A DNA stretch of 22,779 nt from a virus. A program made the translations under genes and the position numbers. A model generated the notes under the pieces. It saw only the letters and a program-made list of their open reading frames with translations, was not told the DNA's origin and did no database searches. Of the stretch, positions 12,576-22,498 are shown piece after piece (positions within the stretch are counted from its first letter, which is position 1; each line of letters begins with the position of its first letter). Location: the IMG/VR virus record IMGVR_UViG_3300009428_000078, positions 1 to 22,779 of that record; one strand, 5' to 3'.

Positions 12576-15110
12576 TTAGTTATACTCCACATAAGCGGTT
12601 AGGGATGATATAGACGGGGTTATATTGTTTGCAATAGATGTAAGTTTCACCTTAAACCTAAAGGCTCTTGCGCTAAGGTCTGCAACTTTTATTGCAGTGT
12701 AGCTAGACCAAACTGGTGTACCTGATGGATCATCTAAAGTTGTAGAGACAAGTGTTATGATGTTAGTGTCAGGAAACTGACTGTCCCCACCTAAGTCGTC
12801 GAACAAGCTGGGCGCACTGTCAAACAGCGCAGGTTGGTCGTCAAATAGGCCAGCAGTATTATCGTGTCTTGCTGTTACACCACTTACGTAGACACGACAC
12901 CTCTTAACACTAGAATCCGCAGTCTCTATGTAGTTACTGAAGAGATACTCCCCCTCAGAGGGTGCTACAGAGGAGTCTGTTATCCTTAGCTTACTGGTGA
13001 CAACCTCTGCGTTAGTCTTTGTACCAGAGAAAGTTGGACTATCTACTAGCGAGATTGTGTTAGCAAAAGGCTCAATATTAGCAATAGGTACAACCACAGA
13101 GGTGTAGCCCAATGAGTAGATGCCTGATTTATCCACAGCTTTAACCATGTATGTCCCTGCCCTAGCTGGAACGGACACACTAGAAGCTGGACGAGATACC
13201 TTGTCAACGTAGACTAAAGAGTTGGGCCAACTAGCTCCGATTAAATCAGGTGTGTATCGTATAACGTAGTACGACAAATCAAGATCAGGTACAGCTTGCC
13301 AATCAAGAGTTATGACAGCACCATTGACTTCCGCTACAAGCCCTGTGATATCTGAGGGAGGTTCAAGTAATCCAGAAGCGTTAATGTTGGACAGATACTC
13401 AAACTCACCTTTGATGCCAAACGTATTTACTGCTCTTGCTCTGAAGTCATAGTTACCATCTTCAAGGTCAATAGCTTCAAAGTTGCCTAGCTGGCCTGTC
13501 CCAAGTGTGATCCAGTTAACTTCTGAGGATAACTTAAACTCAGACTCAACATAATCAACCCTGTCACTCGCAGCGGAGGTTACATCAAGGGTGATAATGT
13601 TTGTGAGCTTCTCACGTATAACCTGAGTTCTAGCGACTGCGGATAGCCCTACAGGTGGCACTGAGAAGGGGGATAGTAGCTCAGTGTTATCTCTCTCGTA
13701 CACGACACCATCAGATACTTCATCGTAGACAGACTCGGCGGTCTCTCTTAATGTCATCTGTGTCTGTAGGTCAAGACCATCAGTTAAACCAAAGTTCCAA
13801 GCAACAACTTCAAACTCTTTGTTAGTCCACCCGAAGCGGGTGTTAGTTAAGCGAACATTGTCGCCAACTTGAACTTGCAACGTCTTTAGTCCAAAGGAAG
13901 CGTCAACTGTAATCTGTTGTCTGTTACGCTCCAGAGAAATAAGAGCAATACGACGAGCTTCGACAGAGTTGTTAGTAAACGGCAGATCAATATCAGCCAC
14001 TGACTCTTGACCACCATCAGCCGATAAAAAAGCTGCATTGGTTACTTGTGGGTAGTCTGTAGTCTGCCAGTTGCTCTCTTCACCACGGAATGTACCCTTA
14101 ACTGTATTGAAGTTGTTTCTACGAGAATGTCGTGTAGATACACTCAAGCTAGAGCGTAGGTCATCTTCGTTAAGATCAAGGACAGGTGTAGTCCAGTAAG
14201 CTGGTTTCATGCGCCACTTACCCTGAGAGTACCACATACTACCATCCATTGAGGTAAGCATAGAGTTAAGCATGTCATACGGAGTTACAGCTAAGGTAAA
14301 TGCACCATTGCAAGTGTAACGAGTTGTACCTGCGATTGTATTAGTTTGATCACATACGTTAGCAGCAGAAGTAACTAAAGAGTCATCAATGTTAGCGACC
14401 TCTTCCGCAAGTCCATAAGTCGAGGTTAAGTAATCCCTCAAGCACAAGGCTGGATTGTCTGACCATGCTGTTGTTGAAGTACGTGGGTCATAGACCTTCT
14501 TACCACTAACAACTGCTGTAAACTCAGGGATACCGTTAGGAAATGCGTTTGCGTCAAACTTTAAACGAACGTACATGTACGCAATATTACGAAGTCTGTG
14601 TTCAGTATTCCAGTTAAATGACTCAGAGTTAAGGTCAGCGTCTACTGTCTGGTCAGGGGAACCGAGGTGCAACTTAAAGCGGAGTTTACCTGCATACTTG
14701 GTTGGGGTGACTACCTCTCCATCAACATCTAAGGTAACTAATTCGTCGTTAACATAAATCTCATCAAAGGACTGTATCTCGTGTCCAGCAAAAGCAAGGA
14801 TACGGTGAAGGTAAACATTGTTTGTACCTGTAGCTTCGTCGTAGATACGAGCGCCAGCAACGCGCATCTTACCGTAGATAACCTGATGATCTAATGCTGT
14901 ACCGATAGCCGTAGTTTGATAACCACGGTTTTGCCCTGACATAGAAGGCTTGGGAGAAAGCGCCCTCATAGCCGCACCAAGTACAACAGAGGTAAGTAGC
15001 TTCCCTATTACAGTGCCTGTAAGGAACGCACCAAAAGCTGTGGCTGCAAAGCCTGTAGCGCCAGCGGTGACAACAGGAACGAAGAGGGGGAGGGCTAACA
15101 ATTGAGCCAT
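12576..15110 (-). CDS. J-like tail tip / host specificity protein
   Basis: An 844-residue central tail hub protein. The N-terminus has a hydrophobic Gly/Ala-rich stretch (about 10-50), followed by a hub-like domain (TTAIGTALDHQVIYG at 66-80, then YLHRILAFAGHEI). A central beta-rich region runs to about 460. Two fibronectin III-like domains follow (about 483-575 and 583-674; DLSYYVIRYT near 611-620 is typical). A C-terminal part carries a triple LFDD-type heptad repeat. Such proteins close the tail end and bind the receptor or fiber. The ribosome binding site is weak, consistent with coupling to the upstream GNAT gene five bases away. Confidence 0.85.
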   Translation of the reverse strand: MAQLLALPLFVPVVTAGATGFAATAFGAFLTGTVIGKLLTSVVLGAAMRALSPKPSMSGQNRGYQTTAIGTALDHQVIYGKMRVAGARIYDEATGTNNVYLHRILAFAGHEIQSFDEIYVNDELVTLDVDGEVVTPTKYAGKLRFKLHLGSPDQTVDADLNSESFNWNTEHRLRNIAYMYVRLKFDANAFPNGIPEFTAVVSGKKVYDPRTSTTAWSDNPALCLRDYLTSTYGLAEEVANIDDSLVTSAANVCDQTNTIAGTTRYTCNGAFTLAVTPYDMLNSMLTSMDGSMWYSQGKWRMKPAYWTTPVLDLNEDDLRSSLSVSTRHSRRNNFNTVKGTFRGEESNWQTTDYPQVTNAAFLSADGGQESVADIDLPFTNNSVEARRIALISLERNRQQITVDASFGLKTLQVQVGDNVRLTNTRFGWTNKEFEVVAWNFGLTDGLDLQTQMTLRETAESVYDEVSDGVVYERDNTELLSPFSVPPVGLSAVARTQVIREKLTNIITLDVTSAASDRVDYVESEFKLSSEVNWITLGTGQLGNFEAIDLEDGNYDFRARAVNTFGIKGEFEYLSNINASGLLEPPSDITGLVAEVNGAVITLDWQAVPDLDLSYYVIRYTPDLIGASWPNSLVYVDKVSRPASSVSVPARAGTYMVKAVDKSGIYSLGYTSVVVPIANIEPFANTISLVDSPTFSGTKTNAEVVTSKLRITDSSVAPSEGEYLFSNYIETADSSVKRCRVYVSGVTARHDNTAGLFDDQPALFDSAPSLFDDLGGDSQFPDTNIITLVSTTLDDPSGTPVWSSYTAIKVADLSARAFRFKVKLTSIANNITPSISSLTAYVEYN
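12786..12848 (-). repeat. Three-copy 21-bp repeat in the tail tip gene
   Basis: The tail tip protein contains LFDDQPA, LFDSAPS and LFDDLGG in a row, three copies of a 7-residue (21-base) unit. The codons for each LFD differ, so the repeat is older than a recent duplication or is kept by selection. It may be a linear binding motif or a short linker between the FN3 region and the last beta domain. Confidence 0.6.
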
Positions 15111-15115
15111 GTGAG

Positions 15116-15574
15116 TTATTTATCTCCAAGATATTTAGAGTACGAACACTCCGAAGGTTTGAACTTTAACCAAGTAAGTATTTTACGCAGGGGACTACTT
15201 ACCTTAGAGTTAATCACAAGCACTGACACTCCGTCTGACTTAAGGCAACTCTCAGCAAACTTAATTAACTTGATACCTGTTAAACCCTTGCGGCAGTCTT
15301 TATGTAAGTACACAACGTCACACAAAGCAAACAAGTGACTTTTGTGGTGTATGTTATGGTTAACTACAGCTACAAAGTAACCCACAAGTTTACCTTCACC
15401 CCTAGCTGTAAAGACTTTAAGGTTTCCTTGTAGCTCTAAAGCGTAGTAGGTTTCCCAACAAGGGTCTAGCTTAATGTAAGATTGGTAGTCCTCGACCTCT
15501 TCCCAGTGTGCAGCAATCAGGGGTTTAATCTCTTCTTCTACTTGAGAGACAAACTCTTGTTGATACTTAATCAT
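15116..15574 (-). CDS. GNAT-family N-acetyltransferase 1
   Basis: A 152-residue acetyltransferase-fold protein. The segment about 84-110 (LCDVVYLHKDCRKGLTGIKLIKF) matches strand 4 plus the acetyl-CoA pyrophosphate-binding turn R-x2-G-x-G/A, here RKGLTG. LKFKPSECSYSKYLG near the end fits the family's last strands. Similar proteins occur in tail regions of many marine phages (recollection). The target is unknown; phage tail proteins, host receptors or small molecules are possible. It starts in a 4-base ATGA overlap with the out-of-frame end of the neighbouring minor tail gene. Confidence 0.8.
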   Translation of the reverse strand: MIKYQQEFVSQVEEEIKPLIAAHWEEVEDYQSYIKLDPCWETYYALELQGNLKVFTARGEGKLVGYFVAVVNHNIHHKSHLFALCDVVYLHKDCRKGLTGIKLIKFAESCLKSDGVSVLVINSKVSSPLRKILTWLKFKPSECSYSKYLGDK

Positions 15575-15678
15575 TTCTCATCTCTACCCCAAGATATCTT
15601 TTTATCTTGCAAGTCTTCGATAAAGTCTAACCCAAGATCGTTAGGGTAGATTGACTTCTGATAACCAGATGTGTACCT
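15571..15678 (-). other. Out-of-frame C-terminal tail of the minor tail gene
   Basis: Read in the +1 frame relative to the minor tail gene, this stretch encodes RYTSGYQKSIYPNDLGLDFI and then EDLQDKKISWGRDEK, ending in a TGA that overlaps the next ATG (ATGA). It has no ATG start of its own: the frame is closed by a stop at about 15721. Continuous reading from the upstream gene would result if one G of the GGG at 15682-15680 were absent. It looks like the genuine C-terminus of the minor tail protein, separated by a one-base insertion, a sequencing error or, less likely, a programmed +1 frameshift. Confidence 0.7.
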
Positions 15679-16198
15679 GCCCTCTAGCTCTCTCAAGGTC
15701 GATAAGTTTATTCTCGACAGTTAACTCAATAGTAGTTGTCTCAGCACTCTCTTCGATGTTCATCTGATCCATATAACCTGAGAACAATTCGTTTAAGCCC
15801 TTGCTACCGTCTTGCAAGTTAATCTTAGAGCCATCTTGTAGTAGTATGTAGGAGCCACTCTGTTGTTGTAGGCTACCATAGGAAAATGTACCAAAGTAAA
15901 TCTTGGCTACACGTCCCTGATAAGGCTCACTGAGGGCTAAGGATAGTAATTCTGAGGGGATACCACTTAGACTAACTGTAGCACCCTTAACAGCCATCTC
16001 AGAGGTTTCCTCAATAGAGGAAATATTAAGGAGTTGACCAAGACCAAACCACTGAGTGCCATTATCAAGTACAAGCGTACCTTGACCCGTCCACATTCTT
16101 ATAGTCTCACTAGAGAAGTTAAGCTCTGTAGCAAAGAACGGGTAGACTATATCTCCATCAATGTTTTCTATTGTGCTTAGGGATAGTTCTCTGGACAT
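15641..16198 (-). CDS. Minor tail protein, apparently frameshifted near its end
   Basis: A 185-residue beta-rich tail protein located between tape measure and tail tip genes, where lambda gpL or GTA hub proteins (DUF2163-like) are encoded. Features are an N-terminal FFATELNFSSETIRMWTG, a central GIPSELLSLALSEPYQGR and a VENKLIDLERARG segment. After that point the frame reads a few atypical residues and stops, whereas the +1 frame continues with a well-patterned 35-residue tail (see the separate entry). An internal LLQDGSKINLQDGSK near-repeat is visible. A good ribosome binding site (GAGGAT) precedes the ATG. The product would be truncated unless the frame is restored. Confidence 0.78.
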   Translation of the reverse strand: MSRELSLSTIENIDGDIVYPFFATELNFSSETIRMWTGQGTLVLDNGTQWFGLGQLLNISSIEETSEMAVKGATVSLSGIPSELLSLALSEPYQGRVAKIYFGTFSYGSLQQQSGSYILLQDGSKINLQDGSKGLNELFSGYMDQMNIEESAETTTIELTVENKLIDLERARGQVHIWLSEVNLP

Positions 16199-16210: not shown

Positions 16211-16729
16211 CTAGTTGGTCAGGTTGTTAATAGTGTTTTGTAAGGTTCGAAGGCTAATCCTGTATCCGTGATCGTCATCAACGCCTGTATCTATTAGGCT
16301 ACCAATGTATTCGTTATAGTTAAAGATGTCTTCCGTTTCGTAACCCCACGCCATTGCGTATGTGTATCCGTTTGCAACACTTTGTTCACTCATTGCCACG
16401 GTAAGTCTATCTATAATGCCTTGGCCTGAGAAGTTTGAGTCCACAAAAATACCTGCTGGCGTGACACAGTCGGTGTTGCTTATCCCAGAAGACTGAAAAA
16501 AGTCAGCAAGACGAGGTAGAATGGTGTGATCTTCGGGTAACTCAAAGTCTAAGCTAGTCCCAACAACAACGCCTTCATCCAGTGCCACTGCAAAGTGGGC
16601 GTTATTTTCAGCAAAGTATGCCATAAGCTCTGCGTTGTATTGGTCAGGTGTGCTTTTGGGGAGAACGAAGTCAACGATATCTTGATAGAGGGCGTTGTCT
16701 TTTAATAACCCTGTGGTGATAGTAACCAT
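16211..16729 (-). CDS. GNAT-like acetyltransferase 2
   Basis: A 172-residue protein with the GNAT layout: an N-terminal helix pair, then HFAVALDEGVVVGTSLDFEL (strands 2-3), AGIFVDSNFSGQGIIDRL (strand 4 with the S-G-Q-G-I-I acyl-CoA loop) and a later YTYAMAWGY strand. The start at 16729 is chosen because GGAGG lies upstream and because it gives the TAATG overlap typical of this genome. The longer frame to 16801 lies inside the previous gene. It is divergent from GNAT 1. Its substrate is unknown, and its placement amid tail genes points to a virion-related or host-surface role. Confidence 0.68.
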   Translation of the reverse strand: MVTITTGLLKDNALYQDIVDFVLPKSTPDQYNAELMAYFAENNAHFAVALDEGVVVGTSLDFELPEDHTILPRLADFFQSSGISNTDCVTPAGIFVDSNFSGQGIIDRLTVAMSEQSVANGYTYAMAWGYETEDIFNYNEYIGSLIDTGVDDDHGYRISLRTLQNTINNLTN

Positions 16730-18859: not shown

Positions 18860-21766
18860 TTATCCGAAGACAGCCTTAGTCGCACCGCCTCTACGACGAT
18901 CATTAAGCATAGAAGATTTAGTCATGTTAGCGATCTGAGGTGCAGCCTGTGCAATGAGCTTCTTAACACTTTCGTCGCCATTAGCTTGGAAGTTGAAGTT
19001 CTGGTGGATCACTACGTTGTCACCACCGCCACCTTCCATTTGTACACCTAGCTTACCATTAGCACCCCTCTTGAGTGGCATGATAGCTTCTGGCCCAGCT
19101 TCACCCATGAGACCAGTCTTACCGCCAGCCATAGGGAATGTTGTTGGACTACCAACGACACCACCGTTAGCATAGGCTTGTATCTGAGAGCCACCTTGCC
19201 ATGCGCCACCATCAGCTTGGAGAGTACCAGAAAGTAATCCAGCCAAGCCAGAACCGCCCTTATTGCCTACGCCTACAGAGCCAACCAACTGTTGTACGAC
19301 AAGGACTTCAAACAACTGCTTGATGATTGACCTAGCCATATCCTTAAAGGCATCCTTAACAGACTTAGTGCCATCAACAATAGAGGTAAATGCGTCACCC
19401 ATACTGTTTGCGATACCTTGAGCTAAATCTTTTTGTTGTGCTGTAGCCTCTTCAAGAATACGGTTCTCTTCTAGTTTGGCTGCGATCTTTTTAGCAGAGT
19501 TGTTAAGTTCTGTTTCCGTTAGCTGTACGTCAGCCTTCTCGTTTTCCTTGAGTAGTTCGTAGTAGATTCTTTGAGCCTCGTGCTGCTCACCACTCAGACC
19601 AATTAAGACACGATCTTGTTGAATCTGTAGCTTACGAGCTTCGATGATCTCGTTGATGTCAATTACGTTGCCACCACCGCCTGTAGGTTTCATACCCGCC
19701 AGCTTTGTCTTAGCCGCCGCCAGTGCATCTAATTCACCCATAGCTGCTAGGAAAGCAAGACTTGCTTCAGCCAGAGCTACTATGTCATTTGCTTGGGTAG
19801 CTAAGACTTTAGAGGTTTCGTAAAGGGCGGTAATCTTGGCTCTCTCACCTGCAACGAAAGCAGCAACCTCTCCAACCTTACCTTCTTCCAGAGCTTTAAT
19901 TTGGGCGTTTACTTTAGCAAGTTGCGTTCCGTAAGTTTCACCAAGACCCTCTAGGTCAGATTGAGCTTTCAATGCCTTATCTATAAAGGCTGACATTGAA
20001 GCTGATACATCAACTCCAGCTAAAGCCAGTGCTGTAACTAGAGCCTCCCCATACTTCTCTTTAAGCTGTGCAACTAGTTTTACTTGTTTTTCAGCTTTCT
20101 TTCTAGCTTCATCAGACGCTTCATTTAGGCTATTAACAAATACCTCATTTTGAGCTAGAAGTCTGGTGTAAGTCTCCTCATTTTGAGTTGCAAGTTTGTT
20201 AAGTTCTACTTCCCCCGCTTGCCTTATCTTAAACTGTTCAATCAGAACCATCTTACGTTTGTCAGAGATGTTCAATAAAGAAACTTCTTTAGCAAACTCC
20301 TGTACGGCAAACTCTTTCTTTAGCTTATCTATCGCAACAGAATCTGCCCCATGCTTTATTTCTGTCTGTAATAGCCTTACTTTTTGCTCTGTTGCACGTT
20401 TACTCTCATTTGTATTTAGCAAGTCCTCTTCTGCAAACTTCGCTTGGAGTTGCTTTAGGGGAAGAAGTTTTGCTTCTTCTGCCCCAATTTCACGAGTTTT
20501 CTTTAGCCTATCTTCTTGGTTTTTCTTAATCTGATTCTGAATAGAGAGGGCGACTTGCAAACCATGGTCAACTTTAGTTGATTGGTCGTTTGAATTTCTA
20601 TTCGCAGCCGCTTGAAATCTTTGTCTAGCCACTTGACTCGGAGATAGTGGTTGGAGGTTTTTACCTACGTTAGAGAAAATGTTTCCCTCCGAACCCTCTT
20701 GTAACGGAGTTTGGGCGGTTAGGCCTATGTCCTTAAAGCCCTCTTCGGCTTCCTCTCGTAAAGCGACTAATTCTTCCGTAAGCTCGGTGATCCTACCCTT
20801 AGCCTTAGTAATCCCACCATTTTGCCTAGTTAGGAAGAGTTCATCTAGGGATACACCAGCGTGTGCAGCCTCTTTAGCCAGAGAGAAATCTCTGATAGAT
20901 TTTATTATGGATTCAAATTGGCTCTTTGCCTTTTTGAGTGAACTTGCAGTTTTGTCAGCAGCTTTCTTTGTTCTCATAAAAGCCGCACCGATACCAGAAA
21001 TAACAGGTATAAGAATACCAAGACCAGAGAACAGAGCTATCAGCTTAGTGGTCTTAGCAAACATAGCCATTGTGCCGACAAGCTGTGTAGCCTGTTGACC
21101 AAAGGCCACCAACACGTTCTGACCTGATCCAACTTGAACTGCAAAGTCACCAACCTGATAACCAGTTTGCTGCATCATAACACCAAGCTGATTAGTCCTA
21201 CGAGCCGACTGTCCCATAGAAACGCTATGTTTAGCGAACACACCCGTTCCAGCCTTCATTTGAGCGTTAAGTCTGGACACAGCAGCGGTTTGCTCTAGGG
21301 TTGTAATGATACCCCTTTTACGAGCCACAGCAAGTTCGTTTAACCCCTTAGTATAAATGTTCATGGCGGTGTGACCCGCTACAAACTTATTCTTAAGCCG
21401 CTCTTCTTCCTTAGCTGCTAAGGCGGTTGAGGCAGCAGCTTTCTTTTCCTCGGAAGCAAGCCTCTTAGTCTCGGCAGCAGCTTTCTTTTTCTCGTCGGCA
21501 AGTCTCTTAGTTTCAGCAGCGGCTTTCTTTGTAGCCTTTTCGTCAGCACGGAGAGCCTTACCATGCGCAAGAAGCTCTTTCTTACTCGTGTTGGTAGCCT
21601 TGGCTAAATCACCTACAGCTTTATTATATTTATAATAACTAACCTCAGTTTTGGATAAGCTAGAAGATAACAGCTTAACATTACCTTGAAGAGTTTTAGT
21701 ATTTTTAATGGCCTTAAGAAGTCCACCCTGCTCAACCCCAAACACTAACTTAATGTCATCAGCCAT
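18860..21766 (-). CDS. Tape measure protein
   Basis: A 968-residue protein that sets tail length and is ejected with the DNA. The N-terminal third has a Lys/Ala/Glu-rich coiled coil (about 75-130) built from two 14-residue repeats. A hydrophobic stretch (about 240-263) is likely membrane-inserting. Long coiled-coil helices run through the middle. The C-terminal DAFTSIVDGTKSVKDAFKDM is the lambda-tail-like tape measure signature, followed by a Gly-rich end containing GLMGEAGPEAIMPL. At about 1.5 Angstrom per residue the tail would be roughly 145 nm, so a siphovirus. It overlaps the chaperone extension by 8 bases, with AGGGGAT as its ribosome binding site. Confidence 0.93.
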   Translation of the reverse strand: MADDIKLVFGVEQGGLLKAIKNTKTLQGNVKLLSSSLSKTEVSYYKYNKAVGDLAKATNTSKKELLAHGKALRADEKATKKAAAETKRLADEKKKAAAETKRLASEEKKAAASTALAAKEEERLKNKFVAGHTAMNIYTKGLNELAVARKRGIITTLEQTAAVSRLNAQMKAGTGVFAKHSVSMGQSARRTNQLGVMMQQTGYQVGDFAVQVGSGQNVLVAFGQQATQLVGTMAMFAKTTKLIALFSGLGILIPVISGIGAAFMRTKKAADKTASSLKKAKSQFESIIKSIRDFSLAKEAAHAGVSLDELFLTRQNGGITKAKGRITELTEELVALREEAEEGFKDIGLTAQTPLQEGSEGNIFSNVGKNLQPLSPSQVARQRFQAAANRNSNDQSTKVDHGLQVALSIQNQIKKNQEDRLKKTREIGAEEAKLLPLKQLQAKFAEEDLLNTNESKRATEQKVRLLQTEIKHGADSVAIDKLKKEFAVQEFAKEVSLLNISDKRKMVLIEQFKIRQAGEVELNKLATQNEETYTRLLAQNEVFVNSLNEASDEARKKAEKQVKLVAQLKEKYGEALVTALALAGVDVSASMSAFIDKALKAQSDLEGLGETYGTQLAKVNAQIKALEEGKVGEVAAFVAGERAKITALYETSKVLATQANDIVALAEASLAFLAAMGELDALAAAKTKLAGMKPTGGGGNVIDINEIIEARKLQIQQDRVLIGLSGEQHEAQRIYYELLKENEKADVQLTETELNNSAKKIAAKLEENRILEEATAQQKDLAQGIANSMGDAFTSIVDGTKSVKDAFKDMARSIIKQLFEVLVVQQLVGSVGVGNKGGSGLAGLLSGTLQADGGAWQGGSQIQAYANGGVVGSPTTFPMAGGKTGLMGEAGPEAIMPLKRGANGKLGVQMEGGGGDNVVIHQNFNFQANGDESVKKLIAQAAPQIANMTKSSMLNDRRRGGATKAVFG
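21432..21526 (-). repeat. 42-bp tandem repeat inside the tape measure gene
   Basis: GCAGCAGCTTTC recurs at 21432 and 21474, with a degenerate copy (GCAGCGGCTTTC) at 21516, giving about 2.3 copies of a 42-base unit. It encodes AETKRLADEKKKAA and AETKRLASEEKKAA, 14 residues or two heptads. The length in whole heptads keeps the coiled coil in register, so copy-number change would alter the rod length without breaking it. Confidence 0.85.
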
Positions 21767-22112
21767 TCGCTATCCCCATATAAACTACATCAACACGTTT
21801 TATAGCTTCTATTTCCCAAGAAGATATAGGTGTCTCAGTCAGTTCCTTCCATGCTTTAATTTGTTCGTATGTTATCGGGTTAGGGCCAGAGAATCCAGCA
21901 GTTCTACTGTTGCTCAAAACACAAAAGGCAGACCAGACATGAGACACAAGCTGAGGAAATACTGTCGGGGGTTCCAGTGCTTCAGGTCTACGTCCAATCT
22001 GCCTTTCTACTTGTTCTAAGTGTTCACGTTCTGTAGTGCCATCCTTGTCAGGTTTGTTTAGCTTAAACTGATGCTCAGACCAAACGCACAACTGAGAAGT
22101 TAGGCTTTCGTA
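21759..22112 (-). CDS. Tail assembly chaperone C-terminal part (T-like), frameshift product
   Basis: The open frame after the chaperone G-like gene has no ATG near its beginning; the first start-like codon is a TTG at 22091. It encodes YESLTSQLCVWSEHQF, then a helical domain with GPNPITYEQIKAWKEL and SSWEIEAIKRVD, similar in style to chaperone C-terminal domains. In lambda (gpG/gpGT) and most long-tailed phages this part is made only by a -1 ribosomal frameshift. The position directly before the tape measure gene and the 8-base overlap with it fit. The predicted fusion is about 246 residues. Independent start at TTG is the alternative. Confidence 0.75.
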   Translation of the reverse strand, partial: YESLTSQLCVWSEHQFKLNKPDKDGTTEREHLEQVERQIGRRPEALEPPTVFPQLVSHVWSAFCVLSNSRTAGFSGPNPITYEQIKAWKELTETPISSWEIEAIKRVDVVYMGIANG

Positions 22113-22498
22113 AAATCCAAAGATTCAGCCAGTGCTTCCTCAATCTGATCTTTAATCCAGAACACTTCGCTGTACAACTCTTTTGCCTTAGCGACAGTAA
22201 GTTTAGGTTTCCCACCATCATAAGTGATATTCCAGTCGGAAGTGATCTTAGATAGAAGAGAAAGTGTAGCCTCTTCCATGTCCTGTGCTGTAATATCTTG
22301 CTTCTTGCCTGACTGCATAGACTTCAGACGTTTGTTTGTCTGTTCGTACATTGCATCTTTATGCTCTTTAGAATGACTTGCGTGGACAGTGATAGTCATA
22401 TCAGTCTTGTCGTCATTCTTCAAGGTGTCGCCAGTGTTGGGGTGTACCAGTTTAACTTCTACAGTGTCGCTGGTAGGCTTGAGGTTCATTAAATCCAT
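22100..22498 (-). CDS. Tail assembly chaperone (G-like)
   Basis: A 132-residue acidic, helical protein located between the major tail protein and tape measure genes, the conserved position of lambda gpG. The N-terminal part is beta-like (VEVKLVHPNTGD, then MTITVHASHSKEH) and the C-terminal part helical (KAKELYSEVFWIKDQIEEAL), typical of this chaperone class. It would bind the tape measure protein during tail assembly, and the longer frameshift product recruits tail tube subunits. AAGGAA lies about 9 bases before the ATG at 22498. Confidence 0.78.
   Translation of the reverse strand: MDLMNLKPTSDTVEVKLVHPNTGDTLKNDDKTDMTITVHASHSKEHKDAMYEQTNKRLKSMQSGKKQDITAQDMEEATLSLLSKITSDWNITYDGGKPKLTVAKAKELYSEVFWIKDQIEEALAESLDFTKA
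22112..22118 (-). promoter_or_regulatory. Candidate -1 frameshift site (T-TTT)
   Basis: Near the end of the chaperone gene the minus strand reads GGATTTT, with zero-frame codons GAT TTT. A Phe tRNA on TTT (22114-22112) can slip back one base to TTT (22115-22113) without losing any pairing, moving translation into the T-like frame. The -1 frame is closed by a TGA at 22127-22125 and the zero frame by TAA at 22102-22100, so any shift must occur in these eight codons. It is not a canonical X-XXY-YYZ heptamer. Confidence 0.5.

Follow-up and report, generated by a model that had tools for sequence, protein, structure and literature searches.

Lambda gpL, to which an iron-sulphur cluster has been attributed, and the minor tail protein L of the Roseobacter isolate phage CRP-406 are encoded in tail modules that run through the tape measure, distal tail, L-like, and J-like proteins. 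A second described system from the tail module is the lambda G-GT −1 frameshift in the tail assembly chaperone (PMC5009743). This shift is conserved across phages, and its site precedes the tape measure gene. Corrective frameshifting of problem indels is likewise known in principle (PMC5009743), and the literature yielded this general frameshifting background and nothing more specific.

Here, we analyzed a marine phage sequence of 22,779 nucleotides (hereinafter, the window) in which the reading frame of a tail-tip gene is broken. The gene product resembles lambda gpL, the phrog_2048 family, and CRP-406 minor tail protein L over residues 1-173, and its gene occupies the same place in the tail module. 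However, the relatives have a single continuous open reading frame (ORF), whereas the window copy breaks after residue 172. Comparison with relatives indicates, with high confidence, that the gene is an ordinary siphophage tail-tip hub gene, normally read in a single frame and here carrying a private, non-programmed net deletion of two bases just after codon 172. The features of the locus are as follows.

12576..15110, minus strand: gene for a gpJ-like central tail fibre/host specificity protein, the following member of the tail module (E below 1e-70 to phrog_5616 and phrog_31; Pfam Phage-tail_3)
15116..15574, minus strand: GNAT-like acetyltransferase gene, downstream (phrog_1249 acetyltransferase, E 1.7e-7; weak Pfam GNAT matches)
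15571..15681, minus strand: conserved C-terminus stranded in the +1 frame (GRYTSGYQK...WGRDEK); its end overlaps the GNAT gene at ATGA
15641..15682, minus strand: out-of-frame ending GQVHIWLSEVNLP plus stop; near-identical letters form an unused frame in the intact relatives L001 and L002
15676..15682, minus strand: lesion site, seven bases (GGGCAGG) against nine in close relatives
15641..16198, minus strand: broken tail-tip (gpL/hub-like) gene, a 185-aa ORF as it stands, with family sequence over residues 1-172

Gene identity and predicted fold

Most of the window protein (residues 1-173) matches positions 174-327 of the 390-position profile of the phrog_2048 tail protein (E 2e-30), and the protein is 44% identical to the CRP-406 'minor tail protein L'. 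The gene lies between those for a distal tail protein (phrog_1302), encoded upstream at a distance of three intervening genes, and the gpJ-like protein (phrog_5616/phrog_31), encoded downstream, and the order of the module matches that in CRP-406 and CRP-6. The family match, the similarity to minor tail protein L, and the gene order together place the gene at the tail tip as a putative gpL-like hub gene. Neither Pfam nor a search of PDB sequences with the profile produced a match for the window tail protein.

The AlphaFold2 model of an intact relative (L001), which is of moderate confidence (pLDDT 66), consists of a β-rich body followed by two C-terminal helices (residues 178-184 and 189-197). 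Its best Foldseek matches are tail-tip and baseplate hub proteins of phages T5, DT57C, Chi, JBD30, and E217, with the best solved structures being 8hqz (E 2.2e-5), 7zhj (5e-5), 8eon (7.7e-5), 8rk3 (5.8e-4), and 8vjh (1.2e-3). At 10-17% identity and TM-scores by query of no more than 0.51, these matches are remote; they support a hub fold for the intact protein. There are no cysteines in the window protein or in its stranded C-terminus, and therefore, an iron-sulphur cluster of the lambda gpL kind is not expected.

The reading frame at the junction

With the 185-aa protein as query, IMG/VR yielded 444 relatives, the best 80 being retained. The similarity, at 66-97% identity, is confined to residues 1-172 of the query; 79 of the best 80 match these residues, and the remaining one (L063) starts at residue 16, where its contig begins. 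None of the best 80 matches the last 13 residues of the query, and hence none shares the ending at 15641. Read through the junction, the locus is a single ORF in all 80 relatives, mostly of 209-213 aa, which passes through LER.R..R(Y/F)(T/S) without a change of frame and includes LERARV(A/G)R(Y/F)TSGYQKS..YP.D.G..F.E..QDK...WG, exactly or with slight variation; the RYTSGYQK-type tail is present throughout this set. A second search, with the query from CRP-406, added 29 more distant viral relatives, and genome contigs contributed one more, from a Rickettsiales metagenome-assembled genome (MAG); all 30 are uninterrupted. The three isolate phages (CRP-406, CRP-6, and CRP-821) each carry the gene as one annotated CDS, in which a form of this C-terminal motif can be recognised. 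Overall, the shift is carried by none of the 113 relatives (110 from public contigs and the three sequenced isolate phages), each of which has one uninterrupted frame, and no other truncated family member was found among the relatives examined. The exact window allele had no match in other viral contigs, in a search that may not have covered the records nearest to the window, and a DNA-level search of annotated phages produced no match.

The window gene follows the family as far as Arg172, after which 13 out-of-frame residues lead to the stop at 15641. The C-terminal end of this 185-aa ORF (16198-15641, minus strand) reads LERARGQVHIWLSEVNLP, followed by the stop (also given as ERARGQVHIWLSEVNLP), and its odd ending, ...VHIWLSEVNLP, is present in L001 and L002 solely as an unused frame. 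The C-terminal segment RYT..YQK..YP.D.G..F.E..QDK...WG, in frame in all relatives, is absent from the frame of the window gene and found only in the +1 frame, where the conserved C-terminus YTSGYQKSIYPNDLGLDFIEDLQDKKISWG is intact. After the break, this frame reads RYTSGYQKSIYPNDLGLDFIEDLQDKKISWGRDEK, holding GRYTSGYQKSIYPNDLGLDFIEDLQDKKISWGRDEK up to 15574, where it meets the GNAT gene, and stops in the ATGA that the two share. Counted from the Tyr codon, 33 of its 34 codons specify the same residue as in L001, so that the smooth +1 continuation noticed initially corresponds to the conserved C-terminus of the family.

The lesion itself is not the one first proposed, namely, one extra G in the GGG at 15682-15680. 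Removal of one G does open the frame, as had been anticipated, but the resulting protein is one residue short (208 aa vs. 209 aa in L001). Between the codon for Arg172 and that for the conserved Tyr/Phe, nine bases (Val/Thr/Ile-Ala/Gly-Arg) are found in all 80 closest relatives and seven in the window, which therefore has a net deficit of two bases. Alignment with the two nearest relatives, L083 (93% DNA identity) and L082, accordingly shows a 2-base gap at 15681, ruling out the extra G. Comparison with L083 and L002/L082 places the gap at the same position, with one synonymous and one non-synonymous codon difference downstream, and one codon difference of each kind is also found downstream of the lesion with respect to L001. 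Because the C-terminus in the +1 frame is undecayed, the event is either recent or artefactual.

Across the ~11.5 kb that align with L083, the lesion is the sole uncompensated frame-breaking indel within a gene; all other coding indels either are multiples of three or cancel inside a short diverged stretch. Generally low sequence quality can be dismissed, given that no further uncompensated indel occurs in the L083-aligned stretch. A chimera of two strains joined at the break was also rejected: identity to L083 is high on both sides, and no breakpoint signal was seen.

Origin of the two-base deficit

A real indel or a sequence error had been offered as the source of the break, which is supported in kind, with the amendments that two bases were lost rather than one gained and that no homopolymer at the site is longer than three. 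The more probable of these accounts is an error of assembly or sequencing (a chimeric consensus drawn from strains living together would be one form), with the gene of the real phage intact. None of the 113 relatives has a break, the other frame keeps the C-terminus whole, the lesion is the only one of its kind seen, and the conservation of the C-terminus makes a dominant truncated allele unlikely. Nevertheless, loss of two bases is uncommon as a random short-read error, the site lacks a long homopolymer, and no second broken gene was seen in the window, so a simple sequencing error should not be assumed by default. Less probable, although a serious contender, is that the sampled phage recently underwent a true 2-base deletion, which either left its genome defective or removed the last ~37 residues in a truncation that the phage tolerates. 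The sequence on either side is clean and typical in other respects, a lone indel of this sort in the window is compatible with one mutation, and no predicted strand extends past the break, which might still allow formation of the hub core (residues 1-163). The lost segment, however, carries R175, Q181, D188, Q198, W204, and G205, which are invariant in 53 sequences, and the lack of any further truncated member among the relatives also weighs against a genuine deletion. If the deletion is true, ribosomes would make a 185-aa protein without the conserved C-terminal segment and its pair of predicted helices, and the GNAT gene would no longer be translationally coupled via the ATGA overlap. Such a protein would probably be impaired, given the loss of the helices and of family-invariant residues. 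A harmful allele would not be expected to predominate in a population, so we lean somewhat towards an artefact over a recent real mutation, which the lack of a homopolymer at the site nevertheless keeps tenable.

Programmed or corrective +1 ribosomal frameshifting that yields a short as well as a long tail protein is very unlikely, and the programmed shift initially suggested is contradicted by the comparative sequence data. The +1 frame does continue without loss, and the rescue of problem indels has a precedent in principle (PMC5009743), but the two-frame layout recurs in none of the 113 relatives, contigs and isolate phages alike. The nine-base junction varies freely, with 22 different 9-mers among 68 distinct sequences; the AGA GGG CAG G site contains neither a stop nor a rare-codon stall, AGA, GGG, and CAG all being in ordinary use in the window; and the 201-nt RNA around the site folds no better than shuffled sequences (z = −0.64). 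It is similarly improbable that one phage lineage lives with a truncated hub or that low-level +1 shifting at AGA-GGG-C rescues the protein, thereby adjusting how much hub is made or in which form. With 113 relatives showing the indel to be private, two forms of a tail protein should not be called from a single metagenomic contig.

The conserved tail-chaperone overlap in the same window illustrates the appearance of a shift that is likely functional. The G ORF (tail chaperone, 132 aa) overlaps a −1-frame T ORF, which has no ATG start near its beginning (window 21759-22498, minus strand; overlap at ~22100-22125). The overlap, TTGGATTTTACGAAAGCCTAA, is strongly conserved at the DNA level, with the GAT and TTT codons identical in all 55 distinct sequences, window included, and in the relatives examined, the −1 continuation stays open past the stop of G. 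This overlap resembles the described lambda G-GT type (PMC5009743) and is likely a programmed −1 shift of that type, with a candidate slippery site, TTTT, that is not the usual XXXYYYZ heptamer. The lambda shift and the break at 15680 both involve tail-module genes with an open continuation in another frame; however, the former is conserved across phages, whereas the latter is private to one sequence and affects a different gene. Within this genome, too, the likely programmed G-T shift is conserved in relatives but the 15680 break is not, which further argues against a programmed +1 shift at the latter.

Neighbouring genes

Two GNAT-like acetyltransferase genes, at 15116-15574 and 16211-16729 (both on the minus strand), flank the L-like gene, the second being weakly matched. 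In CRP-406 and CRP-821, a DUF6950 protein is encoded between the L-like and J-like genes instead. The gpJ-like protein of the window (844 aa) is without ~50 residues found in that of the nearest relative, L083 (893 aa); the gap falls at 14318-14347 (minus strand), where the window and L083 genomes fail to align.
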